Shown here piece after piece: positions 1,132 to 58,421 of a stretch of 58,421 nucleotides of DNA. Every line of letters starts with the position of its first letter. Within the stretch, counting starts at the first letter, position 1. Under the pieces are notes generated by a model, which was not told the DNA's origin, made no database searches, and saw nothing but the letters and a program-made list of their open reading frames with translations. The translations under genes were made by a program, and so were the position numbers. The DNA comes from Selenomonas ruminantium subsp. ruminantium ATCC 12561 (lineage in GTDB: Bacteria; Bacillota; Negativicutes; Selenomonadales; Selenomonadaceae). The stretch lies in assembly GCF_000424065.1 (NCBI RefSeq), contig NZ_AUJE01000028.1, positions 1 to 58,421 on the forward strand, given 5' to 3'.

Positions 1132-1561
1132 ATATACGAGTATTCTGCTGCTAGAAACATAGAACGCTCTATCCACAGTATACCTGTTTTATTTCGTAAT
1201 CCGGATGAATATTCTTAATTCACCGATGGAGTGTTTCTGTATGTTTAGCTTTTCTATGTTTGCAGAGGAAGCAGCAGTCTTACCACCTTTCTTTTTGAAC
1301 GCTGAACGCATGTTTACGACTAAGGCACCTCTGCTATCTCCAAAGCCGTCTTCTTATGTTTATTCGTTGCTATTTGGAGAAATCCTGCTGTCTGGAAAAT
1401 ATTTTGTTTCGAAAATGCATGATTTTTACCTTTTATTGTCAGGTTGTTGTGTTGTCGCTTGAAGGTACAGATTTGAGCGATTTTTTTAGAAAAGCAGGTT
1501 TTTTCAAGTGATTGTCGAAATATTGTTATAGTAGTTAGAAAATTAGATGAGGAGGATGTGT
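1132..1561. promoter_or_regulatory. Divergent cas6/cas10 intergenic region
   Basis: About 430 bases separate cas6 (minus) from cas10 (plus). The region holds the second copy of the 50-bp repeat and, close to cas10, a TATAGT -10-like box (1527-1532) without a clear -35. An 85-codon reading frame through 1205-1462 runs across the repeat and has no protein-like composition. It is taken as non-coding. Confidence 0.5.
1381..1430 (+). repeat. 50-bp direct repeat, copy 2
   Basis: Second copy of the repeat at 111-160, 48 of 50 bases identical and in the same orientation. It lies about 130 bases upstream of the cas10 start, where it could influence expression of the effector operon. Confidence 0.85.
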
Positions 1562-3238
1562 ATGCTAGTCAGCGCAATTTTGTTTGATACAAGATCAATA
1601 CAACGGTATATCTTTTCTGGAACCAAGCTTCGTACGAATATAGGTGCTTCTTATCTGGTGGATACGGTATATGATCAGGTTCTTTTTCCGGTTTTATACG
1701 ATAAATTTGGCAGTAGCAATGTCGACACAGAAAGTTGGCGTCAGGGAAAAATGCTAGGGGATTTGTCAGAAAACATACAATGTGCTGTTGGTTCTAATGG
1801 TGGTGGCAGTATTTTGTTGTTGATTAAAAATCCGATTGAGCAAGATGATTTGAAGGATATAGTGGCTGGATTTAGTCGTAAGCTGCTAGTGGAAAGACCT
1901 GGACTTCACATTGGAGCAGCGTTTGACCGTGAAATCAACTTGGATGATGGAACAAAATTTAAGGACGATTTGGATCGTCTGTACAAGAAGTTAAAAGAAA
2001 ATCAAATGACGGTTTTCCCAGAGGTTAGTATTCCTTATACAGGCCTTACATTAAGATGTCCTGTAAATAATGAAACAGCAAATTATTGGCAGGAAAAGGG
2101 AGATGAAAAACGATTTATTTCACAGGAAACCGCGATTAAAGATATTTGCTCAATAAAGTATACGGAAAAACTGAAAAAATTATATACAACGATTAGTCAG
2201 AAATACGATTTTCCTATGCAGTTAGAAAAATTAGGCCAGAGAAGAAGTGAGGACTATATTGCGATTGTTCATATTGATGGAAATAATATGGGGGTAAAAT
2301 TTCGGTCATGTGAAAATCAGCAAAGCCGCAGCAGATTATCGGAAGAAATTCGCCGTAAAACAGAAGGTTGCTTTGGCAGGTTACTAAATTCTATTGATGC
2401 GGAATATGATACTTATCGGCAGTATCTTGATGTTGGGGAAGAATATGCCGATGATGGCGGAAAACCATTTTTGCCGATTCGTCCGATTATTTTAGGTGGT
2501 GACGATGTTACTTTTGTGTGTCCGGCAAAACTGGCAATACGTTATACGAAGAGATTCATAGAGTATATGATGGCTGAGGATTCAGTAGATGATTTAACAT
2601 CGTCCTGGGCAAAAAAGGTAGATTGCTGTGCAGGGATTGCTATATTAAAGACAAGTTATCCGTTCTTTAGTGGCTATAAACTGGCTGAAAGCCTTTGCGA
2701 TGAAGCCAAGAAAAGAATGCGAGGAGCACTTCGCCAGAAAAATGAGGCTGTTTATGATGAATCTGGTTTAATGGATAAACCGGAGGTGGGAACAAGCTGG
2801 TTGGATTTTGCTATACTTCACGGCGAACAAGCACCTGCTTTAGCACAGATTCGTGAGCAAGAGTATCGTGGAGCCAGAGGGAATATGCATTTTGGGCCAT
2901 ATCAGGTTGGTCATGATATGGGCGCCATTCTTAAAGAGCGCCGCTATGATATAGAAAATCTCATAGATGCTGTTCATCAGTTACAGAGTGGTAAATATAT
3001 GGCAAAAAATAAGATTAAGCGGCTGCGCAGTGTGTTGGAGCATGGAAAACACGAAGCACAGGAATTTATGCAGCAGCTTGAACAACAAAAACCTGTACAA
3101 AAGCTTCCTGATATTGCGGAATGGGCTGTATTTACCGAGCCAGAGAATGCAATGTGGAGTAAGGAAAATCCTAGCAAAACACCTTATGTTGATGTCATAG
3201 AGATGATGGATTTTATTCCAGAGGAGGCAGACAGATGA
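1562..3238 (+). CDS. cas10: Type III CRISPR Cas10, HD-less, with GGDD palm
   Basis: Cas10 is the large subunit of type III effectors; on target RNA binding its palm makes cyclic oligoadenylates. The cyclase motif LGGDDVTF is intact at 2495-2506 (about residue 312), preceded by IVHIDGNNMGVKF, a typical palm strand. The N terminus enters a palm-like fold directly (SAILFDTRSIQRYIFSGTKL) and no HD nuclease domain is seen, so DNA cleavage is not expected. At about 558 aa it is short for Cas10. The start at 1562 is set by GGAGG at 1551-1555; an earlier in-frame ATG at 1547 lies upstream of that site. It overlaps the next gene by 4 bases. Two CARF-HEPN genes downstream fit cOA signalling. Confidence 0.88.
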   Translation: MLVSAILFDTRSIQRYIFSGTKLRTNIGASYLVDTVYDQVLFPVLYDKFGSSNVDTESWRQGKMLGDLSENIQCAVGSNGGGSILLLIKNPIEQDDLKDIVAGFSRKLLVERPGLHIGAAFDREINLDDGTKFKDDLDRLYKKLKENQMTVFPEVSIPYTGLTLRCPVNNETANYWQEKGDEKRFISQETAIKDICSIKYTEKLKKLYTTISQKYDFPMQLEKLGQRRSEDYIAIVHIDGNNMGVKFRSCENQQSRSRLSEEIRRKTEGCFGRLLNSIDAEYDTYRQYLDVGEEYADDGGKPFLPIRPIILGGDDVTFVCPAKLAIRYTKRFIEYMMAEDSVDDLTSSWAKKVDCCAGIAILKTSYPFFSGYKLAESLCDEAKKRMRGALRQKNEAVYDESGLMDKPEVGTSWLDFAILHGEQAPALAQIREQEYRGARGNMHFGPYQVGHDMGAILKERRYDIENLIDAVHQLQSGKYMAKNKIKRLRSVLEHGKHEAQEFMQQLEQQKPVQKLPDIAEWAVFTEPENAMWSKENPSKTPYVDVIEMMDFIPEEADR

Positions 3239-3945
3239 CTGCAATAAATGTGAAAATTAAAACGTTATCACCTATACATATAAACTCGGGGCAAGCTAAT
3301 GTTAATGTAGATGCGGAAGTTATTCATGACCGATTCGGCATGCCTTATATGCCGGCTAAACGGTTTAAAGGACTTTTGGCAGAATCAGCCATAGAACTGC
3401 AGGAGATGGGGGAAAGAGCAGGGCTGGCTGTTCTTCGGGATGTAAATCTCAATCAGCTGTTTCATCAAAGTGCTACAAATAAGCAGGTTTTAGTGGAAGA
3501 GAAAATTGGAGATTGCCAAGATATACAGATTGTAATGCATAATCTGTATATTGCCGAACCAAATGAATATCAATCTATGTGTGTAGCTTGGAAATCGATT
3601 CAGGCTCTTTACCCAGAGATAATCAATGCGCAGGATGTTTTACAGGAATATACCAGTATTCGTTATCAGACAAGATTAGAGAATGGTGTAGCGGTTAAAG
3701 GTTCTCTGCATAATATGCGGGTGGTAAATCCGGGCGTAGTATTTCAGGGACGGTTAGAACTTAAGGGGAAAAATGCAGAGGAGTATTTAGGATTTATCCT
3801 GCTGGCAATTAAGAATATACGGAATGTAGGTTTGAAGCGCAACCGTGGTTTTGGCAATGTTGTATGCCATGTAGAGCTGATAGATGAACGCAATGCAGAA
3901 GTAATCGTTAAGGACTTTTTGGAAAGGGGGAAAAAGTCAGCATGA
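3235..3945 (+). CDS. RAMP protein, Csm3/Cmr4 (Cas7)-like
   Basis: A 236-aa single-domain RAMP expected to form part of the crRNA-binding backbone. The opening NVKIKTLSPIHINSGQ is the usual first strand plus loop of Cas7-group proteins, followed by MPYMPAKRFKGLLAESA, the YIPGSSLKGxLR-type motif. Near the C terminus is the glycine-rich loop NVGLKRNRGFGNV. It overlaps cas10 (ATGA) and csx10, so the three genes are translationally coupled. Assignment to a named Cas7 subfamily is not certain. Confidence 0.8.
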   Translation: MTAINVKIKTLSPIHINSGQANVNVDAEVIHDRFGMPYMPAKRFKGLLAESAIELQEMGERAGLAVLRDVNLNQLFHQSATNKQVLVEEKIGDCQDIQIVMHNLYIAEPNEYQSMCVAWKSIQALYPEIINAQDVLQEYTSIRYQTRLENGVAVKGSLHNMRVVNPGVVFQGRLELKGKNAEEYLGFILLAIKNIRNVGLKRNRGFGNVVCHVELIDERNAEVIVKDFLERGKKSA

Positions 3946-5606
3946 AGAAGATAGATGTTAAGATAAAATTGCTTTCTCCCGCAGTCTTGTCTACGCTTGG
4001 CAGTGCGCATGTAATGACAGAAACGCATAAGTTTATTTCTGGCTCGATTTTACGAGGACTTTTTGCACAACGATATATTGAGATGCAGGAATTAGGCAGA
4101 AATGCTGATGAGCATGCTGGTTTTCGTCATATTTTCTTTTCAGGGGCGCGTTTTGTAGATGCAAATCCAATTTGCAAAGGGGAACGTGCAATAACGCTTC
4201 CGATGTCTCTGCAGAAGGAAAAAGAGGGGATTGGTGGGAATCGTGTACCGAAGATACAGGATTTGCTCAATTTGAATGGCAAGGCGGCAGCCAAGGGGTT
4301 TAAGTCTTTTAGAGGTATGGCGTCTGTTGTTGGAAATGAAATATATAAAGCAAATGTAAAGACGGTTATCAATTTTCATATGAGTCGGAGTGGAGCCAAA
4401 GAACGGCTTAAAGGCAGTAGTCAAGATGGCGGAGTATATAGCTATGAGGCTGTATGTGAAGGGCAGTCCTTTATCGGAACCATTATTGGTGAGCAGGAAG
4501 TTTTGCAGAAGCTGGTTGATGGTCTGAATTTAGATGGCAACGGCTTTATGGCATATATTGGTGTTTCCAAATATACGCAGTATGGTAAATGTAGTGTGGA
4601 GTTAAGTGAAATAGAAGATCTTAATGAAGCAGTGCCAAAAATCGAAAATAAAGTGTTGCTAAGATTGGATACGCCGTATATTCCGCGAGAGAAATATCGT
4701 GGAAATGCAGAAATGGAGCTGGCTGCTGTCATTGACTGTTTAAATCACGACACAGAAGATAAGCCATTTTCTTTGGGGCAGGTCTTTGCTGGGAATGTAG
4801 ACGTGGATAATTTTGTTGGGGCTTGGAATATGTGGCGCCGTCGTGATTGTGCATTAGCGTCCGGTTCTGTTTTTGAAGTGAAGAGAAAGGGCGTTTGGAC
4901 AGATAGAGATTTGAAAACATTAAATGCGCTGATGTTCAAAGGAATTGGAAAACGGCGCGAAGAAGGGTTCGGACAGTTAAGAATTTGGTCTGTTGATGCT
5001 TTGGCTATGGGGAGCAACATACAGGAAAAAGATACAGAGATTCAGGCGAATATGGTTATACCGGAGGCGGTGAAAAACCAGATAAAAAGTATAATTAACG
5101 GACGGATATTTAATCAGCTTCAGATTTATGCTTATGAAGATGCAGCAGAGGCTCGTATAGAGATGGGAACAGGCATGGCTCATTTTTTTGCCCGTCTTGA
5201 ACAAATGCTCGAAGAAGCAAGAAAAAATAAAACTTCGGTACAAAAAGCTATGTCAGCAGCAATAAAAGAAAATAAGGAACATCAAGATGATAAGATTCAT
5301 GCCAGGGATAAGGCGCATACTCCGTTCCAAGAACATCTGAGTAAAGTATTTATCCGTAAAAAGGCTTCTTTGGGAGAATATTTGGAGTGCAGGGCTGGGA
5401 TTATGCCTTATTTAGACAGAGACTTGCATCATCTGATTAAGGATGTAGGTGCAGGTTCCGAAGAGAAGGTAAAATCATTACTTAAACTTGCTGATGGCAG
5501 CATTGCTGAAGATAAACTGGCAGACAATGATTATTTTTATACGTATTGGCATTGGTTTTTCCGTTATGGTAGAAAACATGCAACTAAGAAACCGAGGAGG
5601 CAGTAA
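3942..5606 (+). CDS. csx10: CRISPR RAMP protein Csx10
   Basis: The 554-aa protein has the Csx10 hallmarks: an N-terminal RAMP strand VKIKLLSPAVLST, SGSILRGLFAQRY, and the internal motif YIGVSKYTQYGKCSVEL, equivalent to the LGRSRxxQYG motif of the family. A second RAMP half follows, with GIGKRREEGFGQLRIW. Csx10 is the Cas5-like subunit diagnostic of subtype III-D. The C-terminal 130 residues are charged, helical and less conserved. It overlaps the RAMP before it by 4 bases and is 3 bases from the next gene. Confidence 0.85.
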   Translation: MKKIDVKIKLLSPAVLSTLGSAHVMTETHKFISGSILRGLFAQRYIEMQELGRNADEHAGFRHIFFSGARFVDANPICKGERAITLPMSLQKEKEGIGGNRVPKIQDLLNLNGKAAAKGFKSFRGMASVVGNEIYKANVKTVINFHMSRSGAKERLKGSSQDGGVYSYEAVCEGQSFIGTIIGEQEVLQKLVDGLNLDGNGFMAYIGVSKYTQYGKCSVELSEIEDLNEAVPKIENKVLLRLDTPYIPREKYRGNAEMELAAVIDCLNHDTEDKPFSLGQVFAGNVDVDNFVGAWNMWRRRDCALASGSVFEVKRKGVWTDRDLKTLNALMFKGIGKRREEGFGQLRIWSVDALAMGSNIQEKDTEIQANMVIPEAVKNQIKSIINGRIFNQLQIYAYEDAAEARIEMGTGMAHFFARLEQMLEEARKNKTSVQKAMSAAIKENKEHQDDKIHARDKAHTPFQEHLSKVFIRKKASLGEYLECRAGIMPYLDRDLHHLIKDVGAGSEEKVKSLLKLADGSIAEDKLADNDYFYTYWHWFFRYGRKHATKKPRRQ

Positions 5607-5608
5607 TT

Positions 5609-7060
5609 ATGGGGGAAGAACATATTGTCGGCAAAATTGTAATAACTGGCAGTCTGAAGCTGGTTTCTCCTTTGCTTATCGGTTCAGGGCAAGATGATTA
5701 TCTATCCGATAATGATAAGGATATACATGTTATGAAAGTAATGGACGATAGGGGAAGGATGCAGTGTGTTATTCCGGGAACGTCTATTGCTGGTGTTCTG
5801 CGTGAATTAGTTGCTGAACAATGTCGATTGAGAAATAGCGGAATAAATAATCGACAGATATATAGGGAATTATATCAGTTATTTGGCGAACTGGATATTA
5901 TGCAGAGTTCTATTGATGTGAATGATGTTATTCTGGAGAACGCACAGATTGTCTATCGAGATGGTGTACGTATCGATGAGGATATGGGAGCCGCGATAGA
6001 TGGTGCAAAATATGATTATGAGGCAGTTGATCGCGGCGCAGACGGTAAATTAAGACTGGTCATAACCCTGCGCGGTATTCATACGGAAAATCCGGCGGAA
6101 TGGCAAACGGCAAATATCAGGCCGGAAATATTGAATGTAGTCTTTTATATCCGTGAATGTTTGGAAAAAGGTATTCGTTTAGGTGCGATGACCGCTAAAG
6201 GATTAGGTCAGATAAAAGTAGAGCATGTGCAGGCGGGATTGTATGATTTTGCTAACGCTAAAGATGTTACTAACTGGCTGTTGCAAGAGATTCCGGATAG
6301 CCAACGAGCGGGTAAATTTCTGCAGGAAAAGAGTTCATGGACTGATCGTAGCAACTATATGTCTGTAGATGCAGATTTTGCATTGAAGTCATCACTGATT
6401 ATCCGGGATTATGGAACGGAAGTTAAGACACAAGACGGCAGACGCGTAACGATATCGTTAAAAAACAAGAAGGAGTATATTATTCCTGGAACAAGTATAA
6501 AAGGTGTGCTGCGGCATCAAGCGGCATACATTTTGGATTCATTAGGACAAAGAAAAGATTTTCTAAGTGATCTTATGGGATCATCGGAATCAGGAAAGCG
6601 TAATGATACAACAGAAGGACGTGTCAAAAGCCGCTTCTTTGTAGATGAGGTTTACATTGCGGAAGGAAAAAAAGCTGCAGTGCAAGCTAAAGAGATAACC
6701 CGTAACCGCATTGACCGTTTTACAGGGGGAACGATTGAATCGGCCTTGTTTGCAGAACGCCCCCTATGGCAGCATGATGACCGTGTACCTACTGTACATT
6801 TACGTTTTTTTATAAAAGATGCAGATGATAAGGATGCGGGCCTTGCCTTGTTCTTATTAAAAGATTTATGGCAGGGAAAAATTGCTATTGGTGGTGAAGC
6901 CGGTGTTGGTCGTGGTACTCTAAAAGGATTGTCGGCTAAAATCACCTATCATGATAAAACATATGAGTTGGATATGAATGGCAGGCTGATCGCGGGTAAT
7001 CCGGATGCACTGGAACATTTGGCAAAAGCATTTGTAATTTATGCCAAAGAGGAGGTCTGA
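5609..7060 (+). CDS. Two-domain RAMP (Csm3-Csm3-like fusion)
   Basis: Two Cas7-type units are fused in 483 aa. The first runs from GKIVITGSLKLVSPLLIGSG with CVIPGTSIAGVLREL; the second from about residue 250 (FALKSSLIIRDYG) with YIIPGTSIKGVLRHQ and, at the end, IGGEAGVGRGTLKGL. RITRNRIDRFTGG-like sequence (residues ENxIDRxTGG type) is typical of Csm3. Acidic residues after the first strand (SDNDKD) could supply target-RNA cleavage. Fused Csm3-like subunits occur in subtype III-D and foreshadow single-protein Cas7-11 effectors. Start is set by GAGGAGG just upstream. Confidence 0.83.
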   Translation: MGEEHIVGKIVITGSLKLVSPLLIGSGQDDYLSDNDKDIHVMKVMDDRGRMQCVIPGTSIAGVLRELVAEQCRLRNSGINNRQIYRELYQLFGELDIMQSSIDVNDVILENAQIVYRDGVRIDEDMGAAIDGAKYDYEAVDRGADGKLRLVITLRGIHTENPAEWQTANIRPEILNVVFYIRECLEKGIRLGAMTAKGLGQIKVEHVQAGLYDFANAKDVTNWLLQEIPDSQRAGKFLQEKSSWTDRSNYMSVDADFALKSSLIIRDYGTEVKTQDGRRVTISLKNKKEYIIPGTSIKGVLRHQAAYILDSLGQRKDFLSDLMGSSESGKRNDTTEGRVKSRFFVDEVYIAEGKKAAVQAKEITRNRIDRFTGGTIESALFAERPLWQHDDRVPTVHLRFFIKDADDKDAGLALFLLKDLWQGKIAIGGEAGVGRGTLKGLSAKITYHDKTYELDMNGRLIAGNPDALEHLAKAFVIYAKEEV

Positions 7061-7063
7061 CGC

Positions 7064-7687
7064 ATGGAAAATAATAGACATGGAATGGATTTAGCAAAAG
7101 AGCAGCTAAAAGTAATGGAATGTCCGTTGTTATCAGCATTCACCCGTATTGAATCTCAAATGTTTAATGTAGACGAGCTGGGCAATATCATCAAGTCCTG
7201 GTTAAAAAAATATATGCATAATAAAGGCAGTATTGTTATTTGGACATACGCCGAGATTACTTGGGGAATATGGAATGGTGAGGAAATTTGTACGTCAGGT
7301 GACTGTGTAAATTTTAAAGATATTTTGGAACTGAGAGCTTTTAATGAACAGGAAGAATTACATTTGGTTAGGGAAGATAACGTATTAGAGGGACGTTACG
7401 TAGAAGATGGAATAGGCAGTAATACCTATTATGTAGATAGTTTTGCACGTCTTTTTGGAGAACGGGACATGCAAGCAGATATTCCCCAAGGTTTTGTACG
7501 ACTGTCTGATCCTAAACGTAAATTGGAAATGGATGTAGTATGTGATGAAGATTTAGTGGGTGTGCAGTATTTGGGGCTCGAAACACGTAACTATGTAGGT
7601 GCAGATGAAAAGACAGGTCTTTCTGGATATGTTGATTATCGATTTATTGCAGTAAGACCAGCACAGGGAGGACATAGGAATGGCTAA
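7064..7687 (+). CDS. csx19: CRISPR-associated protein Csx19-like
   Basis: A 207-aa protein in the Csx19 position of a III-D operon. Family-like features are IVIWTYAEITWGIWNGEE, then ILELRAFNEQEELHLVRED, and a C-terminal YVDYRFIAVRP, as in Csx19 proteins that pair an aromatic strand with an ELRxF...ELHLxR segment. Its biochemical role is unknown; it is thought to be an accessory subunit of III-D complexes. It lies 3 bases after the double RAMP and overlaps the next gene by 8 bases. The name rests on motif recall, not a search. Confidence 0.7.
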   Translation: MENNRHGMDLAKEQLKVMECPLLSAFTRIESQMFNVDELGNIIKSWLKKYMHNKGSIVIWTYAEITWGIWNGEEICTSGDCVNFKDILELRAFNEQEELHLVREDNVLEGRYVEDGIGSNTYYVDSFARLFGERDMQADIPQGFVRLSDPKRKLEMDVVCDEDLVGVQYLGLETRNYVGADEKTGLSGYVDYRFIAVRPAQGGHRNG

Positions 7688-9890
7688 ACCAAAAAAACGT
7701 GAAGATAAGAGAGAACAAAATATAATTGATGAAAATCCTTTTGCAGCTGCTTTTCGAAAAAGTGGATTGGCTAATGAAGAACAGTTGGAAAGTGCCAGGC
7801 ATGACAACGCTTCAAGGGAACAAGCACGTGCCCAACAAAACCAGAGAAAAAATATGACTTTGAGTCAACGGGGAAAAGCGGGAAAGTCGGGAAAGTTTAT
7901 ACCAACTCCCAGCGTGGCAGGCAAAATATATGGGCAGATAAAAAATATCTCTGCGGCCACGGTTCCTGCAGATATTGCTACAGCTCCCTATAATTTCATT
8001 CCTCTGCCGGAAAAAGCATTGTCGTCTGAACTAGGGGAAAAGATTGGCAATATATTGATAGAGGATAATCATTGGAAAGAGAAATTGTCTAAGGAGGAAC
8101 AGAGTGCATTGCGCGATTTGTTCCATGACTTTCGTTTTTCAGGAGATCGTTATAGTGGAGAAATTGAACTTAACATAAAAGCACTTACCTCGTTATTTAT
8201 TGGAGGCAATGAGAGTGGTGAAACGTTTGCTCCTGCTGGCTCACCAATGATTCCTGGAAGCAGTTTGCGTGGAATGGTTAAGAATCTATTCCAGATTATT
8301 ACATGTGGTGCATGGGAAAAAGGTGAAACTCTTACAGGGAATCATCCTTATTATAGATGTCTTATTGCATCTAATCGTGCACCACAAAATAAAATCCTGA
8401 ATGAATTATATAAGGATCGTATGACCAGTACGGAAGATGGTAAGGTCAAGAAAGTAGCTAAACCAGGATTTTTAGTCAAGATAGGGACAAAATATCGTAT
8501 TTACCCAATTATCGAGGACAAAGAGCATTCTATTGTTATTAAAGAGTATAAAGAAAAGTATAGGGCAGATATTTCTAAATCCCTCGTTCGTTGGGATGGT
8601 GAAAGAGCGTATGTGCAGGTAGGGCTGATTTCTGCCAAATCAAGAAACAATCTCAAGAGTAAGGATGAGATTGAACAATTCATGCGAGTGACACCTGCCG
8701 AAAAACGTAAGGATATTGGCAAACAGTATTATCGTTATATGAATGTTAATGAACTTAACAAGGCCAAATACTTTGAAGTGCCAGATGATGTAATCGAAGA
8801 ATATAAAAATGATAAAAACCGTGGCGGTGTAAATTTGCTCGATGGCAGCAGTAAAAAATATATTGAAGGTAATATGCCGCAGAGTATTGCTGGTTTTAGC
8901 GAATCTTACAAATATATTGTTCCCTGTTATTATCTCTTGGAAAATGGTGTGGTGACTAGTTTTGGGCATGGGCAGTCATTCCGAGTGGCTTATCGGAATT
9001 CTATTATGGATGCCATTTCAAGTGAATTGACCAAGCCTGTGGTCGATTTTGCTTCTGCTGTATTTGGACGGAGTCTTAGCGCAGCATCATGGGCTAGTCG
9101 AGTGGCCTTTGACGATGCAAAACTGATATCAACTCATCGAAATGACGAAAAAGCAAAAGCTAGGGCCTTAATGAATCCTAATCCCACATCTATCCAGCTT
9201 TATTTGAACCAAGACAGCAAGGAGTCTTTATTGCATTGGGAAAGCAGCAATGCAAGAATTCGTGGCTATAAAATGTACTGGCATAATCCAAAGACAACTT
9301 GGAAAGCATCGCCGCAGGAGATTGAACAGATAGATGGGAAAAGAGATGAACAAAAAGGTGGTATACTAAAAAATATACAACCTCTTGCCAAGGATAGTGA
9401 GTTTAAGGGTGCAATTCGCTTTAAGGAGTTGACAGCCTGTGAGTTGGGAGCGTTATTGAAGGTTTTCCATGTATGCCCTGAAGGGCAACCGGCTTATAAA
9501 ATTGGTATGGGAAAATCGATTGGCCTTGGTAGTATAGAGATAAAGACTAAGCTGCAATTAGAGAATGGCAGCCGTTATACACAACTGTTGGATAATGATT
9601 TTCTGCATAATTCATTGACGGAGGAATCAAATCCAGATAAGTTCATACGTGTTTATGAGGAATATGTATCCCAGCAGAGCATGAATGCTGTGTACAAAAA
9701 AACAATTAAGACGTTAGGTTTGATGCTAGACTATCGCAATACGGAACTTCCTTATTGGGCCGATGCCGTTGCTCCTATAGATGGTTCTACCAATAATCAA
9801 AATCAAGATAATGTGGATAAACGTTTTGAATTACGTTCGATATTGCCTGATGTTGAGAAAGTTATTGAACGCGCGGAGAAACCGATGTAA
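7680..9890 (+). CDS. Large RAMP protein, TIGR03986 type
   Basis: The 736-aa protein has a charged, disordered N-terminal tail (first ~90 residues), then ATAPYNFIPLPE, which I recognise from the TIGR03986 CRISPR RAMP family. A RAMP core follows, with GSPMIPGSSLRGMVKN near residue 190, FRVAYRNS near 440, and a late GMGKSIGLGSIEI glycine-rich loop. Such proteins accompany Cas10/Csx10/Csx19 in III-D loci and probably form part of the backbone. The start overlaps csx19 by 8 bases behind GGGAGG. Sequence after the stop is a cas6 relic, not a continuation of this gene. Confidence 0.82.
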   Translation: MAKPKKREDKREQNIIDENPFAAAFRKSGLANEEQLESARHDNASREQARAQQNQRKNMTLSQRGKAGKSGKFIPTPSVAGKIYGQIKNISAATVPADIATAPYNFIPLPEKALSSELGEKIGNILIEDNHWKEKLSKEEQSALRDLFHDFRFSGDRYSGEIELNIKALTSLFIGGNESGETFAPAGSPMIPGSSLRGMVKNLFQIITCGAWEKGETLTGNHPYYRCLIASNRAPQNKILNELYKDRMTSTEDGKVKKVAKPGFLVKIGTKYRIYPIIEDKEHSIVIKEYKEKYRADISKSLVRWDGERAYVQVGLISAKSRNNLKSKDEIEQFMRVTPAEKRKDIGKQYYRYMNVNELNKAKYFEVPDDVIEEYKNDKNRGGVNLLDGSSKKYIEGNMPQSIAGFSESYKYIVPCYYLLENGVVTSFGHGQSFRVAYRNSIMDAISSELTKPVVDFASAVFGRSLSAASWASRVAFDDAKLISTHRNDEKAKARALMNPNPTSIQLYLNQDSKESLLHWESSNARIRGYKMYWHNPKTTWKASPQEIEQIDGKRDEQKGGILKNIQPLAKDSEFKGAIRFKELTACELGALLKVFHVCPEGQPAYKIGMGKSIGLGSIEIKTKLQLENGSRYTQLLDNDFLHNSLTEESNPDKFIRVYEEYVSQQSMNAVYKKTIKTLGLMLDYRNTELPYWADAVAPIDGSTNNQNQDNVDKRFELRSILPDVEKVIERAEKPM

Positions 9891-10138
9891 AGTCTGCTGG
9901 AGGAGAAATTAGCTGCTGGGAGCCATAATGTACAGGTTAAAGGCAAATTTAGACGTGAGAACATGGATTCCCGTTACCTTTGCCGGAACTGGTATTTGGC
10001 TCCCTGGCAGGAAAATGGCGTCAGATATTCCTGATACTGGCATACTATGCAGATTTTGCTGGTGCAGGAAAAATTACTGGACGAGGATTTGGAAGGCTTG
10101 TTACCAGTTGGCAACAACTTGGAGGAAAAAATGGATAA
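9891..10138 (+). pseudogene. Decayed second cas6
   Basis: Frame +2 reads FPLPLPELVFGSLAGKW, then YYADFAGAGKITGRGFGRL. These are the two conserved C-terminal blocks of Cas6 (compare YPWPLPEFVFGSLADKW and AYAEFSGVGRWTAHGLGQV in the intact cas6 at 316-1131). About 60 residues that separate the blocks in the intact protein are missing. Upstream (NVQVKGKFRRE) the similarity moves to another frame, so there is also a frameshift, and no start is present. The two copies are clearly diverged, so this is an old paralogue or a gene from another source. Its tail supplies the GGAGG of the next gene. Confidence 0.8.
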
Positions 10139-10517
10139 TGCAATATTTATAAATCATACCAATCATCCATCTGCAAGATGGTCGGAACAACAAAAAAAGG
10201 CTGCGTTTGTCTATGGAGAGATTAAAGATATTCCTTTTCCGCTTATCCCTCCCGAGGAAAGTTCGGAAAATATCAGAGAATTAGCCATAAAAATGGCAAA
10301 GACGATAGCAGACATGAACCCTAAAGCAGTGTTGTGTCAAGGTGAATTTAATTATGTATTTTGTTTGGTCGATGCATTATTGTCGCAAGGAATAAAGGTA
10401 ATGGCAGCTTGCAGTGAAAGAATTGTACGCGAATGGACAGACGAAAATGGTGAACAGCATCGTGATGCGGTTTTTCAATTTCAGCAGTACAGAGATTATA
10501 TAAGGGCAAAAAAGTAG
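10131..10517 (+). CDS. Small CRISPR-associated protein, family unnamed
   Basis: A 128-aa protein starting at ATG 10131, six bases after GGAGG (10121-10125). Visible blocks are INHTNHPSARWSEQQKKAA, YGEIKDIPFPLIPPEE, VLCQGEFNYVF, ACSERIVREW and a final QFQQYRDYIR. The alternating strand/helix pattern, a CQGEF turn and the ACSER motif suggest a small Rossmann-like fold, as in Csx15/Csx20-type accessory proteins. Its place between a type III effector and two CARF RNases suggests cOA binding or turnover (ring-nuclease-like). This is conjecture; I do not recognise an experimentally studied member. Confidence 0.65.
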   Translation: MDNAIFINHTNHPSARWSEQQKKAAFVYGEIKDIPFPLIPPEESSENIRELAIKMAKTIADMNPKAVLCQGEFNYVFCLVDALLSQGIKVMAACSERIVREWTDENGEQHRDAVFQFQQYRDYIRAKK

Positions 10518-10529
10518 AGAAGATAAATT

Positions 10530-12260
10530 ATGGAAAGAAATATAATGATTGCTTTTGTCAGTCTTGTTAATGGATATTCACTACAGAATCCCATTCATTA
10601 TCCTGACATTATGGGAGAGCCATACACAGCCATTCAAACGAATGAATCTGCTGTGGTTTGGATAAAAAGATGGCTAAAAAATAAACCGTTAGATAAGTTA
10701 TTTTTGATTGTCAGTAAGACAGTAAAAGAGGATTATATTTCAGATGATACTGAATTTGGTCGTGTAACACATAAAGAATTTTTAGAGAAACGTCTTCTAC
10801 TAAACTTCCCTGATTTGGAAGGGAAGTTTCAGTATTTTGATTATTCAGAAGGAATGGAGATTGATAATAGCGATGTTGCGCAACAAGAGTTAGGACAAAA
10901 TCTCTTAGAAGTTGCAAATATTTTCCAAGGAATACAAGCCTATATGGATAGCAATAAGGAAGATATAATAAATGTTCATGCAGATATGACTGGTGGCATG
11001 AGACATGCTTCTATGATGATGTTATCTATTATGCAGTTACTTAAATATAATGGAGCAAAAATATGTGAAGTATTGTATTCGGATCAGAAAAAGAAGCAAG
11101 TATATCAAGCAAACTCTATTCAGAGAATGTTTACACTGATAAATGGTGCGGATGAATTTTCACGGTTTGGTAGTGTAAATGCAATCATGGAATATTTTGA
11201 ACCCAATAAGGAAAATTTAAGTGGTCCATTAACGGAACTATTAGAAGCTATGCAGCATTTTTCAGATTCCATTAAGATATGCAGCACAAATGCAATTTTA
11301 GATGAAGTTAAAAATTTAGGAAATAAAATAGAAATTTTTCAAAAAACAGGCGGAGAAACATTAGATGAAAAAATCTTTAGTCAAATGATTACGACGATAC
11401 AAAAAGATTATGATACTTTACTAAAACCGAATGTTAATCAAATCGATATTATAAAATGGTGTATAAAGAAAGAATTCTGGCAGCAGACTCTGACATTATG
11501 TACAGAATGGCTACCAGAATTACTAGTTGATAAAAAAATAGCGTTTACTGATAATAAGGTTGTTATCGATGCTTGCGAAAAAGAAGGCGAAGGAATGTCG
11601 CGAAGCTGGAAACAAGATTTTATCATGACGTATAAAGGTATCAGCCAAAAAGAGAAAATAGCTCCTATTCGTAACTGGCTGAAACTTACTGCTTATAATA
11701 TCCCCAATAAAACAGAGATAGAGCGGAATTTAAAAAAATTCCCGCGATTAATGAGCATACTGTTAGAGTATATCAATTGTCAAAAAGAATATTATAAATT
11801 ACAAAGAAATATAAGCGATTTAAACAATTTTTCTAATACGTATAAATCACTTTATAAAGCATTAAATAAAATATATAAAAAATATGCGCAAAATAATAAT
11901 TACAAAAAAACATTTGCATCTTTTATCACTGGAATGGATTATCAAAAAATACAAAAGGAAATAAGTGAATTATCACACAGTGATTTTTGGGATCTGCTTG
12001 AAATAGAAGAGCCTAAGCCAATTCTTAGAGGTTCAGATAAGTGGAATAATCGATGTATTGATTATATGAAAATGATGGAAGATAATATTTTGTGTTCAAA
12101 ATGTGCTTCGCCTATGGAAATGATGGAATTCTTGCATGACTATCACGAAATAAAGGAAATTAGAAATACCATCAATCATGCATCTAAAGAGGATAAATAT
12201 GATATAAAAAAGATATCGAATAAAATTTCCATGTATTTAGATAAGTTAAGTATGTGGTAA
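10530..12260 (+). CDS. CARF-HEPN ribonuclease (Csm6/Csx1 group), copy 1
   Basis: A 576-aa protein with an N-terminal CARF domain (FVSLVNGYS first strand; HADMTGGMRHAS motif near residues 150-161) and a C-terminal HEPN RNase motif RNTINH (545-550, R-x4-H). Family knowledge: cyclic oligoadenylate bound by CARF activates the HEPN site, which then degrades RNA non-specifically. The middle is a long helical segment. It lies directly after the small accessory gene and shares its CARF layout and mid-region (IKWCIKKEFWQQTLTLCTEW) with the next gene, showing tandem duplication. Confidence 0.85.
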   Translation: MERNIMIAFVSLVNGYSLQNPIHYPDIMGEPYTAIQTNESAVVWIKRWLKNKPLDKLFLIVSKTVKEDYISDDTEFGRVTHKEFLEKRLLLNFPDLEGKFQYFDYSEGMEIDNSDVAQQELGQNLLEVANIFQGIQAYMDSNKEDIINVHADMTGGMRHASMMMLSIMQLLKYNGAKICEVLYSDQKKKQVYQANSIQRMFTLINGADEFSRFGSVNAIMEYFEPNKENLSGPLTELLEAMQHFSDSIKICSTNAILDEVKNLGNKIEIFQKTGGETLDEKIFSQMITTIQKDYDTLLKPNVNQIDIIKWCIKKEFWQQTLTLCTEWLPELLVDKKIAFTDNKVVIDACEKEGEGMSRSWKQDFIMTYKGISQKEKIAPIRNWLKLTAYNIPNKTEIERNLKKFPRLMSILLEYINCQKEYYKLQRNISDLNNFSNTYKSLYKALNKIYKKYAQNNNYKKTFASFITGMDYQKIQKEISELSHSDFWDLLEIEEPKPILRGSDKWNNRCIDYMKMMEDNILCSKCASPMEMMEFLHDYHEIKEIRNTINHASKEDKYDIKKISNKISMYLDKLSMW

Positions 12261-12290
12261 TTAATAGATAACACGAAAGGATGGTTAAAA

Positions 12291-14156
12291 GTGAAGCAAC
12301 ACATAGTACTAACATTTTTAAGTATGATAAGAACAACAGCGGTTTCTAAAGAGGAGAAAGATACGCGAGTTGCTGATGAAACGTTATATGAAAATATAAA
12401 TGGTGAGGGAACACGCACCACAAATGAATCTGCTTTAAGGTATCTGTTACAGGAATATAATGGGGAGAAAATTGCTAGAATATTTGTTTTTGCTTCGAAT
12501 GCTGTAAGGGATAATAAATTTGCTTTTTTTTCAAAAGAATATAATAAAAAGCTAACACATTTAGACTACTTTCGTGAAAGAATGAGAAAGTTTATTCCCT
12601 ATATAGATGAGTGCATGCCAGAAAGTGCAATCTTCCCTTATGACGAAAATGGTACAATAAATGATGCATTACGTAGTGTAACAAAGATGTCTCAGTGGAT
12701 AGAGTCATTTAAGAAAAAGTATGAAAATGATGATGTGATGTTACATGTTGATTTGACGGGAGGAATGCGTTCCGTCAATATGATGATGTTGGATGTAGTT
12801 CGCCTTATGGAATACAACGGAGTTAATAAAGGATATTTACTTTATTCTAATTATAATAACTCTTCGAGAAAAGGTAAGGTAGAGAAATTAGATAGTATAT
12901 ATAACCTCTTTGGACTGATATCAGGAGCTGAAGAATTTATTCGTTTTGGCAGCACAAAGGCCTTTAAAGATTATTATGGTGATGGTCACCATAATGTTTC
13001 TCCACAACTGAAGCGCTTGCTTGAAGCTATGGATTGTTTTGCTGAGGAGATAAAACTGTGTCATTATGGACAACTCGAAGAAGCGATTATAAACCTGCAT
13101 GATGCTGTCCATGATTATGATGTGCAAAATAGTGATGATGTGGATGAACTGTTAATGGGTAGTTTAATTGACCGTATTCGCTATGAATATCATAATTTGA
13201 TAATAGATAGAAAACTTGATGATTTAAAGATTATTAGATGGTGTCTAAAAAATGGATATATGCAGCAAGCAATGACAATATATACGGAGCGTATTCCTGA
13301 ATACATAGGAGAGAATAATTTAATTTATTTAGATGAAGAAAAAAGAGATAAATTAAATATATTAGTAAAAAAAGACAAGATGAAGCGTAATTTATGGTTC
13401 TATTTATTAAATGAATGTGATAAAGTGTGTGAGAGTATAGGTGAAAAAATAATTGTTAATGATAAACCCAAAAATATTGTAATAGACGAATTTGACAAAC
13501 GTGAAGCAATTGTATCATCTGCTATCAATAAATTTTGTAAATCAGTTAAGCGTGATTTTATTACGCAGATAATAAAAAAGACCAGTGATTTTGATTTTGA
13601 CGCTTGGTTAGATAAGAATATGATGCAATTGCAAAAAATGAATATGAAGCTAACGGAGGAAGATGTTGATACATTGCGTAGTCAATGTGAAGCGTTGATA
13701 AAAATAAAGAACGATCCGAGTATCCTTTTGGATATTGACAATGCGGATATTTATTCATTGCACAAACTTATAAATAAGCAAAGAAAAGCATTGCTCGAAC
13801 TAAATAAGGGGTATATGCGATTTAAAATGATTAGTACATATATCAATAATGCTTCTGTTGATGAAATAAAAGAAGTATTCCCTATGCCAAAATCGGCGAT
13901 AGAATTAGAGGAAGAATATCCTTTGGCAATGAAGGAATATTATATGATTCAGAATAATATATTTTCTCCTACTATAGAAATAAATAAATTTTTAAGCATT
14001 ATGAATCGATATATACGCATAAAAGACGAGCGTAACCATAGCAACCATGCCAAAAAAAATATAAGTGATTTCACTAGTGCGGAAGAGTTAAAAAATTTCA
14101 TATTTCAAAGTTTAGATGAAATAGAAAATGTAATGACAGAAATTAACGATGTATAG
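12291..14156 (+). CDS. CARF-HEPN ribonuclease (Csm6/Csx1 group), copy 2
   Basis: A 621-aa paralogue of the preceding gene. The CARF motif HVDLTGGMRSVNMMM is at residues 153-167 and the HEPN motif RNHSNH at 581-586. A shared block IRWCLKNGYMQQAMTIYTER matches the mid-region of copy 1. The start is GTG behind AAAGGATGG. The gene converges on, and overlaps by 14 bases, the minus-strand WYL gene. Two diverged effectors could answer different cyclic oligoadenylate sizes or form heterodimers; the sequence alone cannot decide. Confidence 0.85.
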   Translation: MKQHIVLTFLSMIRTTAVSKEEKDTRVADETLYENINGEGTRTTNESALRYLLQEYNGEKIARIFVFASNAVRDNKFAFFSKEYNKKLTHLDYFRERMRKFIPYIDECMPESAIFPYDENGTINDALRSVTKMSQWIESFKKKYENDDVMLHVDLTGGMRSVNMMMLDVVRLMEYNGVNKGYLLYSNYNNSSRKGKVEKLDSIYNLFGLISGAEEFIRFGSTKAFKDYYGDGHHNVSPQLKRLLEAMDCFAEEIKLCHYGQLEEAIINLHDAVHDYDVQNSDDVDELLMGSLIDRIRYEYHNLIIDRKLDDLKIIRWCLKNGYMQQAMTIYTERIPEYIGENNLIYLDEEKRDKLNILVKKDKMKRNLWFYLLNECDKVCESIGEKIIVNDKPKNIVIDEFDKREAIVSSAINKFCKSVKRDFITQIIKKTSDFDFDAWLDKNMMQLQKMNMKLTEEDVDTLRSQCEALIKIKNDPSILLDIDNADIYSLHKLINKQRKALLELNKGYMRFKMISTYINNASVDEIKEVFPMPKSAIELEEEYPLAMKEYYMIQNNIFSPTIEINKFLSIMNRYIRIKDERNHSNHAKKNISDFTSAEELKNFIFQSLDEIENVMTEINDV

Positions 14157-36723: not shown

Positions 36724-36899
36724 GCTAATTCCACCTTTCGATAAAATACTGCACAAAATGAATTTATTATTTGTACCTATTGATTATCTTCGTTTATTAT
36801 TATATCAATCTTTGGGTAGGTGTTACTGCATAATATTGTTTAATTTAGGTAAATTTCGCCTTGTATACGCAATAAATAAGTATATTTTGAGTAAGTTGC
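36724..36899. promoter_or_regulatory. Upstream region of second iolG with iolR-like motifs
   Basis: Three related sequences occur: TTTGGGTA (36811-36818), TTTAGGTA (36844-36851) and ATTTTGAGTA (36884-36893). The first two are 33 bp apart, close to the 32 bp between the TATTTTGGGTA repeats at iolR. They may be sites of one regulator. Confidence 0.45.
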
Positions 36900-37330
36900 T
36901 ATAAAATCTTGCTGTCTCCTGTAAGGATAGTTTTCCAGAGAACCTTTGGCAATAAGCGGCCATCCATGACGCAGACAGATGGGCTGCTGCTAAAAGGAAA
37001 AGATGGAATCCTGCTCGTGCCGTTCGGACGCTGCATTGATTTGACGATAGTTGTCAGGCGGCAGTATCCATGGTGTGACCGCAAAAAAGCCCGCATATTT
37101 TTCTGTTGACCACTGCATGGGCGTGCGGCCGTTATCCCGGGAACGAGCTGCAAGAATTTCCAAGGCTTCCTGAGAGCCGATTTCTTCCCCTTGGTAGATG
37201 TAAGGCGTTCCAGCCTTCCCCTGCCTGCATGCCTTCCTGCCATTGGGCAAAAAGTCGCTTGAGCTCTGCGATATCCGGCTCCATCAGCTGCCATTTGTCC
37301 CCAGGGCTACCTTCAGATGATGGAAGCTGA
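36900..37330 (-). pseudogene. Decayed GH13 alpha-glucosidase / trehalose-6-P hydrolase
   Basis: On the minus strand, GTPYIYQGEEIGSQEALEIL, RSRDNGRTPMQWS and KYAGFF...TPWI...NYRQINA are the C-terminal barrel motifs of TreC/oligo-1,6-glucosidase proteins. Upstream, DKWQLMEPDIAELKRLFAQW is in another frame and downstream the sequence shifts again and stops. No start and no complete domain remain. The plus-strand side is cut by the inverted-repeat copy at 37325. Confidence 0.8.
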
Positions 37331-37542
37331 ACAGCGTAGCAGGCGGCAACGCCGTAGGTCCTGTTAAAGAGACTGGCCCACTGGGAACTGGTCCAATCGC
37401 CTATCCTTATGAACAGAAGACTGGCCCATTGGGAACTGGCCCGATTGCCTATCCTTACGAACAGAAAACCGGCCCGTTAATGCCTCCGCCGAATTCTTGT
37501 GACCCGCCATTCAAGACTGGACCGATTGGTATCCGTGTATAA
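37322..37542 (+). pseudogene. 5'-truncated double-glycine TGP-repeat peptide gene (copy A)
   Basis: The frame ending at TAA 37540-37542 reads LNSVAGGNAVGPVKE, followed by two tandem 16-residue units (TGPLGTGPIAYPYEQK twice, 48 bp each), then TGPLMPPPNSCDPPFKTGP. It is nearly the same as the intact gene at 55728-55934, which has only one unit. The start and the first leader residues are missing because the copy is joined to the GH13 relic. A terminator follows directly. Confidence 0.75.
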
Positions 37543-45530: not shown

Positions 45531-45558
45531 AAAGCTGCCGATTCGGCGGCTTTTTTTA
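45531..45558 (+). terminator. Rho-independent terminator
   Basis: AAAGCTGCCG (45531-45540) pairs with CGGCGGCTTT (45544-45553), followed by T's. Confidence 0.85.
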
Positions 45559-46038
45559 TTCACTCCTGTATCCTAAATATGCAAGGACATTTTGCAATGG
45601 CTGCTTATCACGGAGGTCCAACCAATCGTCAGGACGGCTGTTGTCATCGATAAGAATCAACAGATAGTCCAATATCATCCGGCGTGCTGCCCACAAGCCC
45701 ACTTCATTGGCTGTGAACTTCTGCCCCGTCAGACGCACTGCCCCATCCACATAACTGTTGGCAATGATCAAATCTCCCAGCACCGGCACCACAGCGTCCA
45801 GTGCTGACTGAATATGCAGCAAAAAATCGCCTCGTTTAGTTCCCCATAAGGGGCTATGTTCAACTATTTTATAAGCCATCTGCAAGGCATGAGTCTGGGC
45901 AATATATTCCATCGCCGTCAACTCTTCTTTATCCAGGGCTTCCAACATAGCCGTATATCGCATGCAGGGTTCTGCTTTTACCTTGGCTGCATTCGCCAGC
46001 CTTGCCTCTCGTATCTTGGCAAAATCAATAATGTCCAT
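45556..46038 (-). CDS. Hypothetical helical protein, 160 aa
   Basis: Helical protein MDIIDFAKIREARLANAAKV onward, with YTAMLEALDKEELTAMEYIA and GLWAARRMILDYLLILIDD. No family recognised. GGAG lies in TAGGAGTATAG just before the ATG. The same leader and first codons recur in a truncated copy at 55472-55570, so the family was duplicated in this genome. Confidence 0.7.
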   Translation of the reverse strand: MDIIDFAKIREARLANAAKVKAEPCMRYTAMLEALDKEELTAMEYIAQTHALQMAYKIVEHSPLWGTKRGDFLLHIQSALDAVVPVLGDLIIANSYVDGAVRLTGQKFTANEVGLWAARRMILDYLLILIDDNSRPDDWLDLRDKQPLQNVLAYLGYRSE

Positions 46039-55471: not shown

Positions 55472-55570
55472 ATGGATATTATTGATTTTGCCAAGGTGCG
55501 GGAGGCAAGGCTGGCGAAAGCAGAACCCTGCACGTTTTTGGAAAGTTTTTTTATAGAGTATGGCTGAAAT
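55472..55570 (+). pseudogene. Truncated copy of the 160-aa hypothetical gene
   Basis: The leader TAGGAGTATAG and codons MDIIDFAKVREARLAKAEPC match the start of the gene at 45556-46038. After about 20 codons the sequence runs into the inverted-repeat arm B and stops (FLESFFIEYG). A TATAAT lies upstream at about 55438. A 32-aa product is possible but is taken as a remnant. Confidence 0.65.
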
Positions 55571-55897
55571 TCCTGTGCTGAATAATGACTTGTTTTGCGG
55601 ATAAAAGTAGCTGTATCAGGTTTTTGACTTCACCCCAATTAGATGAAAAGTGGTGGCTTATTGCAGATAACTAATTTACCAAAACAAGAATCCCCCGCTT
55701 CTTAAAAAAGGGGGGATTCGTTGTTTTTTATACGCGCCCCCCCAACGGACCAGTCTTGAAGGGTGGGTCACAAGAATTCGGCGGAGGCATTAACGGGCCG
55801 GTTTTCTGTTCGTAAGGATAGGCAATCGGGCCAGTTCCCAATGGGCCAGTCTCTTTAACAGGACCTACGGCGTTGCCGCCTGCTACGCTGTTCAGCT
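55540..55897 (-). repeat. Long inverted repeat, arm B
   Basis: Reverse-complement match of 37325-37718. It contains the peptide-gene core, its terminator and about 140 bases downstream, in which a CFADKSxCIxFLTS...KWWLI reading is kept in both arms. Confidence 0.85.
55688..55719. terminator. Terminator after the double-glycine peptide gene
   Basis: GAATCCCCC (55688-55696) pairs with GGGGGATTC (55711-55719); T-rich on both sides, acting downstream of the minus-strand peptide gene. Confidence 0.75.
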
Positions 55898-55934
55898 CCT
55901 CGAATTTCATTTCTTTCTTATCCAGCACCATCAT
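55728..55934 (-). CDS. Candidate double-glycine-leader peptide with TGP-repeat core
   Basis: A 68-aa product. The leader ends in KFEELNSVAGG at residues 10-20, the form cleaved by peptidase-containing ABC exporters (bacteriocin and RiPP leaders). The core of 48 residues is Gly/Pro-rich and repetitive: VGP, ETGPL, GTGPI, KTGPL, KTGPL, with PPPNSCDPPF and one Cys. AGGAG precedes the ATG and a terminator follows, so it is an intact monocistron. A truncated copy with an extra 16-residue unit is at 37.3-37.5 kb. No exporter or modifying enzyme is in the window. A structural or surface peptide is the alternative. Confidence 0.6.
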   Translation of the reverse strand: MMVLDKKEMKFEELNSVAGGNAVGPVKETGPLGTGPIAYPYEQKTGPLMPPPNSCDPPFKTGPLGGRV

Positions 55935-56095
55935 TTTAATCGCTCCTCTCTCTTGTTGTTTGTTGTTGTTTGCCTTTCTGACTATACATACGATTATGGT
56001 ATTTTTTTATTACGCTGCACAGTAAATTTTTTTGTAATTTTCTTAGTTGGGATACCCCGCAGCTTTTGCTTTGTCGTACCACATATGTGCCGTAT

Positions 56096-58099: not shown

Positions 58100-58234
58100 T
58101 ATCCTTTGACACTCCCCATGCCTAAAGGCAGGGGATTCTTGGTTCGCTGAACACTGCGGCCTAGCCGTAACCAGTTCGACTTACACGTTCTCCCCAAGCG
58201 TAAATTCCCGTGTGCCCCACGGTACTAATTTATA
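58100..58234 (-). ncRNA. IS200/IS605 right end and candidate omega RNA
   Basis: CCCCATGCCTAAAGGCAGGGG (58114-58134, reads as a hairpin on the minus strand) is typical of IS200/IS605 right-end hairpins. It is about 100 bases after the tnpB stop. In TnpB systems the guide RNA comes from this 3' segment. A transcript has not been shown. Confidence 0.5.
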
Positions 58235-58421
58235 TTAAGCAACCTGTTTTTGTTCAAGTGCCTTTCGCAGTATATTTATTGCTGCATTGGCATCTCGGTC
58301 ATGATGTGAACCACATGCAGGGCAAGTCCAATCCCTGATACCAAGATTCTTAGTTTCCTTGTTCTGGTATCCGCATTTTGAACAGGTCTGGCTTGACGGG
58401 TAGAATGTATCTACCTTCAAG
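58235..58421 (-). CDS. tnpB: TnpB (IS200/IS605) C-terminal part, cut by window end
   Basis: The last 61 codons: [19 protein letters not shown] and [20 protein letters not shown], the TnpB zinc ribbon (two C-x2-C pairs) and the RuvC-III motif [11 protein letters not shown] with its catalytic Asp. The rest lies beyond the window. TnpB is an RNA-guided nuclease that protects transposon copies. Confidence 0.85.

Follow-up and report, generated by a model that had tools for sequence, protein, structure and literature searches.

The window, i.e. the whole stretch of 58,421 nucleotides analysed here, is contig C25 of the 3.39 Mb source genome (G000). It contains a short gene on the minus strand whose product joins a double-glycine leader to a proline- and glycine-rich core with TGP repeats, and a second, damaged copy on the plus strand. 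The features are:

55728-55934, minus strand: gene for a TGP-repeat double-glycine precursor peptide of 68 aa, recognised by its open reading frame (ORF), purifying selection and homologues.
55875-55934, minus strand: leader, residues 1-20 (MMVLDKKEMKFEELNSVAGG), with predicted C39 cleavage after GG.
55731-55874, minus strand: core NAVGPVKETGPLGTGPIAYPYEQKTGPLMPPPNSCDPPFKTGPLGGRV, 48 residues containing 11 Pro, 8 Gly, four TGP and one Cys.
55943-55946, minus strand: ribosome-binding site GGAG, 8 bases 5' of the ATG.
55979-56013, minus strand: ECF-type promoter-like motif, an exact match comprising GTAAT (56009-56013), N16 and CGTA (55989-55992), then TGTATAGTCA; a putative promoter.
55681-55726, minus strand: terminator-like hairpin 3' of the stop codon, more stable than shuffled sequence and absent from a consensus scan.
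37324-37542, plus strand: second TGP copy, longer by one 48-bp unit; a remnant with a truncated leader, no start codon and no exact upstream motif.

The ORF, its coordinates, the leader, the core and the ribosome-binding site are all present as described in the initial annotation. The terminator that it proposed stands in part: the hairpin folds better than shuffled sequence (z -3.4, with 1 of 200 shuffles equally stable), but it is not listed by a simple consensus terminator scan of the region downstream of the gene. A scan for sigma-70 promoters returned none that was properly placed for the TGP gene. The hairpin resembles another at 58128-58420, the arms being 79% complementary; in that region, a hairpin arm with GGGGATTCTTG accompanies what appears by eye to be the C-terminal part of a TnpB-like protein, at the end of the contig. 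At the other side of the window, positions 1547-14156 hold successive genes that look, by eye, type III CRISPR-like (Cas10/RAMP-type), together with associated proteins.

Purifying selection on the TGP gene is evident from its homologues. The 68 codons shared with an 84-aa homologue in G011 (MAG RUG12654) differ by 13 synonymous and 2 non-synonymous changes (dN/dS 0.04), and comparison with the homologue in G002 (TAM6421) gives approximately 26 synonymous and 29 non-synonymous changes (dN/dS 0.21). When the latter pair is divided into its parts, dN/dS is 0.82 for the leader alone and 0.13 for the core, indicating that constraint in that pair lies on the core and not on the leader. Both genomes fall in the same genus group as the source genome and are filed as Selenomonas ruminantium, TAM6421 now being placed under Pseudoselenomonas. 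A chance ORF is ruled out by the synonymous excess against G011 together with the presence of homologues with leader and core in other genomes. Conservation also covers the region upstream of the gene.

The second copy had been taken as a sign that the core evolves by repeat change. The extra unit exists, the two 48-bp units being identical at 40 of 48 bases, and change in repeat number is upheld by the intact G011 homologue, which carries a doubled unit; the copy in the window is itself, however, a nonfunctional truncated remnant, since an in-frame TGA (37318-37320) lies just 5' of it and there is no ATG, GTG or TTG ahead of the VAGG, the start and most of the leader having gone. Directly 5' of this copy, frame remnants of GH13 (glycoside-hydrolase-like) appearance can be seen by eye at 36899-37320. 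Next to the intact gene, a gene-start fragment at 55472-55560 (MDIIDFAKVREARLAKAEPC) has a longer paralogue at 45556-46038 on the minus strand, and related sequence is visible by eye 3' of both TGP copies in the window, suggesting an old duplication of the gene plus its downstream region.

Protein and profile searches, plus three genes found via the promoter-like motif, yielded 11 intact TGP members (the window gene included) in 8 of 189 Selenomonadaceae genomes, i.e. in G000, G002, G006 and G011 of genus g1 and in G029, G030 (three), G037 (two) and G038 of genus g3. No clear intact TGP gene was found outside these two genera in the 189 genomes, which is also the number covered at the level of the order. 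Left out of the 11 are a divergent possible relative in G017 (C8:76470), with an IAGG leader and a motif that looks degenerate by eye, and a G104 gene (L035) with a GG leader but another core. The leader ends in [VI]xGG in every member; ahead of the GG, position -4 is V or I and position -7 is L or M. The proposal of a double-glycine family with TGP cores is upheld, and none of the 11 members lacks the VAGG-type site.

The earlier statement that the peptide matches no known class agrees with the curated models, no cut-off of which is reached by any member. There is no match to the NHLP/Nif11 leader models (TIGR03798) at E <= 0.1 among the 11 members, while 6 of the 11 match the class IIb cerein/lactobin model (TIGR03949) weakly, at 12.9-17.3 bits against a cut-off of 21.5, over the leader and first core residues. 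Assignment to a known curated family was rejected, as all matches are sub-threshold, and the TGP peptides are a new double-glycine family with unusual cores. The TAM6421 copy, annotated as a hypothetical protein (WP_014431113.1), is on plasmid pSRC1, the sole record with a relative in the plasmid search. Carriage by viruses is unsupported, no relative being found among the viral contigs searched.

The cores are composed of reshuffled short units (TGPL, (A/N)YPY, CDPP and NAVGPVNETGPL) that differ in number among relatives, in keeping with a tandem-unit precursor whose exported core is cut into several short signals, e.g. [x]TGPL. Disordered peptides that undergo no processing would also be expected to vary in their repeats, and such a precursor, which is compatible with the explanation favoured below, is considered improbable.

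The TGP gene is preceded by TGTAAT-N16-CGTATGTATAGTCA. In an alignment of 14 upstream regions, 13 of which have enough sequence, GTAAT-N16-CGTANGTATAGACA occurs in nine of the 13, comprising all seven TGP genes and two other VAGG genes; it is absent in G104 and in three VAGG genes in the vicinity of the G000 export cluster on C8. A scan of G000 allowing up to two mismatches found six sites, four of them exact, and none for a backward-pattern control. Each of the four exact sites precedes a GG-leader gene, the cores being different and one gene encoding just 27 aa; behind the one-mismatch site comes a small ORF lacking GG, and behind the two-mismatch site there is no GG gene. Of the exact sites, one is on contig C20, where it follows an NHLM/C39 export operon and separates an ECF sigma factor gene from three VAGG peptides. 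Among intact TGP genes, the exact motif is present in all 10 for which the upstream sequence is long enough, although this count is not independent because seven of them helped to define the motif and three were found through it. What the member genes share, GTAAT-N16-CGTA, is a two-part promoter-like motif with fixed spacing, as expected for an ECF regulon. Its layout is the same as that of the motifs reported for BldN (CGTAAC-N16-CGTTGA) and SigW (TGAAAC-N16,17-CGTA) in PMC2375139.

With up to one mismatch allowed, the 189 genomes contain 85 sites in 28 genomes, and two for the backward pattern; the most in any genome is 10 (G030). All 85 sites, including two that run into a contig edge with fewer than 50 bases left, were examined with a rule fixed before counting: an ORF starting no more than 170 bases from the site whose first 110 residues contain a GG leader. 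This rule is passed at 49 of 61 exact sites and 13 of 24 one-mismatch sites, and failed at 12 and 11 respectively. After removal of the nine motif-defining sites, 40 of 52 exact sites pass (44 of 52 when the search extends over the entire ORF), or 33 of 44 by distinct site sequence. Random positions in the same loci pass in 1950 of 16400 cases (11.9%), a conservative control since these loci are rich in GG-leader genes. The 12 failing exact sites consist of four with a VAGG-type leader further in, one at a contig end (G013:C110) and seven followed by other ORFs, of which three look secreted by eye. Beyond the letters searched, the consensus includes an extra T before GTAAT in 34 of 39 distinct sites.

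Some of the genes behind the motif are of other kinds. At G164:C8:1132402, G166:C9:111897 (one mismatch) and G167:C50:9005 it precedes a small secreted-looking protein, approximately 93 aa in G164 and G167 and LysM-like by eye, which is a possible non-peptide member of the regulon. At G027:C71:14286, G030:C5:45766, G032:C44:12807 and G037:C194:310 it precedes precursors of approximately 200 aa, perhaps large bacteriocins, in which a long leader that ends in VAGG is followed by a hydrophobic core rich in Gly and Ala.

The C39-type exporter on which a double-glycine reading depends is present, three such exporters being found in G000. In the C20 operon the NHLM ABC2, C39-ABC1 and HlyD genes score above the curated cut-offs (TIGR03794, TIGR03796 and TIGR03797), and a peptide beside the exporter has a sub-threshold Nif11-type leader. 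The C20 sigma factor reaches the cut-off of the general ECF model (TIGR02937); its closest curated model is BldN-type (TIGR02952), for which 132.1 bits fall below the cut-off of 206.45. Orthologues of this sigma factor, at a cut-off of E <= 1e-80 chosen after the table had been seen, occur in 19 genomes, the exact motif in 21 and both in 17; a partial G185 sigma factor (69% identity, E 6e-68) falls outside. The remaining two orthologue genomes (G012 and G026) have one-mismatch sites before GG genes, and four genomes have the exact motif and no orthologue. Genomes with the orthologue hold 55 of the 61 exact sites. Within-genus Fisher tests of the association gave p values of 0.011 (g1), 0.005 (g3) and 0.17 (g22); part of the association may be phylogenetic.

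ABC2 is the neighbour of the sigma gene in 15 of the 19 orthologue loci; the other four are G164 and G168, which are differently arranged, and G011 and G037, where contig ends cut the locus and adjacency is not seen. In all five sigma clusters scanned, GTAAT-N16-CGTA precedes a short, conserved gene that is read divergently; L157 (G030) has two further occurrences, neither of them at a GG gene. The divergent short gene has an AAAG leader-like stretch (L045, 11804-12016, with counterparts in L157, L158, L160 and L161) and lies opposite the exporter operon in four clusters and opposite the sigma gene in G164 (L160). The two other NHLM/C39 clusters of G000, on C24 and C8, both include an ECF gene (38-39% identity), and the 16 kb scanned of each contain no match to GTAAT-N16-CGTA. 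The three VAGG peptides near the C8 cluster that lack the motif lie at 4447-7574 of L007.

The same upstream motif could instead be the site of a classical activator, i.e. a two-component regulator or other DNA-binding protein, with export unchanged. Conservation does run past CGTA to TATAGACA, a possible -10 element or operator, and G006, G014 and G027 carry exact motifs and NHLM exporters with ECF proteins just 38-39% identical to the C20 factor, so that either the motif can be read by these distant proteins or it belongs to orphan genes. The layout of GTAAT-N16-CGTA, its fixed spacing, the adjacency to an ECF gene and the co-occurrence across genomes nevertheless fit an ECF sigma factor, which makes control by an activator unlikely.

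In TAM6421, the gene and exact motif are present but the genome gave no C39 match, no NHLM exporter above cut-off and no sigma match, and the TGP gene there can hardly work as proposed. A C39 match is absent in 8 of the 22 genomes of the genus, some of which are incomplete. TAM6421 would suit a relic in decay, whose orphan genes spread and degenerate and have lost export in most strains, as would the leaderless TGP remnants in G000 (two, the second on C24), G004, G008, G010, G011 and G017. Strong purifying selection between the intact G000 and G011 copies, both in genomes with a C39 exporter and the sigma orthologue, argues the other way, as does the exact motif of all 10 testable intact genes (with the dependence noted above), and general decay is judged very unlikely.

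The reading favoured here, based on sequence comparison, is that the TGP gene belongs to a dispersed, ECF-controlled regulon of C39-exported peptides, which is regarded as likely for the gene; the system as a whole is probably such a regulon. The ECF sigma factor encoded after the NHLM-type export operon on C20 would start transcription of the TGP gene at 55979-56013, and would likewise transcribe other unlinked double-glycine peptide genes and the genes on either side of the exporter operon. The leader would then be recognised by the C39 domain of the C20 exporter and cleaved behind the GG, leaving the 48-residue Pro/Gly-rich core to be exported, most likely unmodified. The main ORFs of the 16-kb C20 stretch include no recognised modifying enzyme, and neither do the features listed around the TAM6421 TGP gene. 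Outside the cell, the core may act as an interbacterial peptide, either bacteriocin-like or a signal.

A broader statement, held at slightly better than even confidence, is that NHLM/C39 clusters of the Selenomonadaceae carry their own ECF sigma factors, at least one of which commands unlinked double-glycine genes genome-wide through one promoter code, with the TGP peptides as a new class of member and possibly multi-unit signal precursors. If the motif is the promoter of this sigma factor, it offers a simple search key for exported-peptide genes that have no recognisable core and lie far from exporters. Furthermore, a whole set of exported peptides, with up to 10 motif sites as in G030, would be switched on and off together.

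The proposed regulon resembles known NHLM/NHLP systems in the curated matches of its exporter operon; unlike them, the TGP members have no NHLP/Nif11 match at the threshold used, the TGP gene is far from the cluster and the operon has an ECF sigma gene beside it. The layout of the GG leader is shared with class II double-glycine bacteriocins and pheromones, including the class IIb cerein/lactobin group, whereas the TGP core consists of Pro/Gly-rich TGP repeats and the six TIGR03949 matches are all below cut-off. In the streptococcal Com and Blp regulons, scattered double-glycine peptide genes have a common promoter element and an exporter. Those regulons are under two-component control, in place of which an ECF sigma factor is proposed here, while the dispersed genes and common element are alike.

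The open-access literature searched, outside which most subscription papers lie, contained no paper linking ECF sigma factors to NHLM export and no description of double-glycine peptides of Selenomonas; in the main text of the Hungate1000 bacteriocin survey (PMC13289728), as far as it was available, no word begins with Selenomonas. Sublancin of B. subtilis is a double-glycine bacteriocin under the ECF factors sigma M and X; the cluster of this one glycosylated peptide is regulated by general ECF factors together with a two-component system and further regulators (PMC4336743). Here, by comparison, a single sigma gene is located beside the exporter, and the genes with the motif are scattered; given that ECF control is known for sublancin, the new part would be the dedicated sigma gene beside the exporter and the scattered regulon. 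A parallel to a dedicated factor is microbisporicin, an actinomycete lantibiotic for which a pathway-specific ECF sigma factor with an anti-sigma factor (MibX/MibW) drives the bacteriocin gene set of one gene cluster (PMC4973701). The Selenomonas system would be alike in its proposed dedicated ECF sigma factor and differs in that its genes are scattered.
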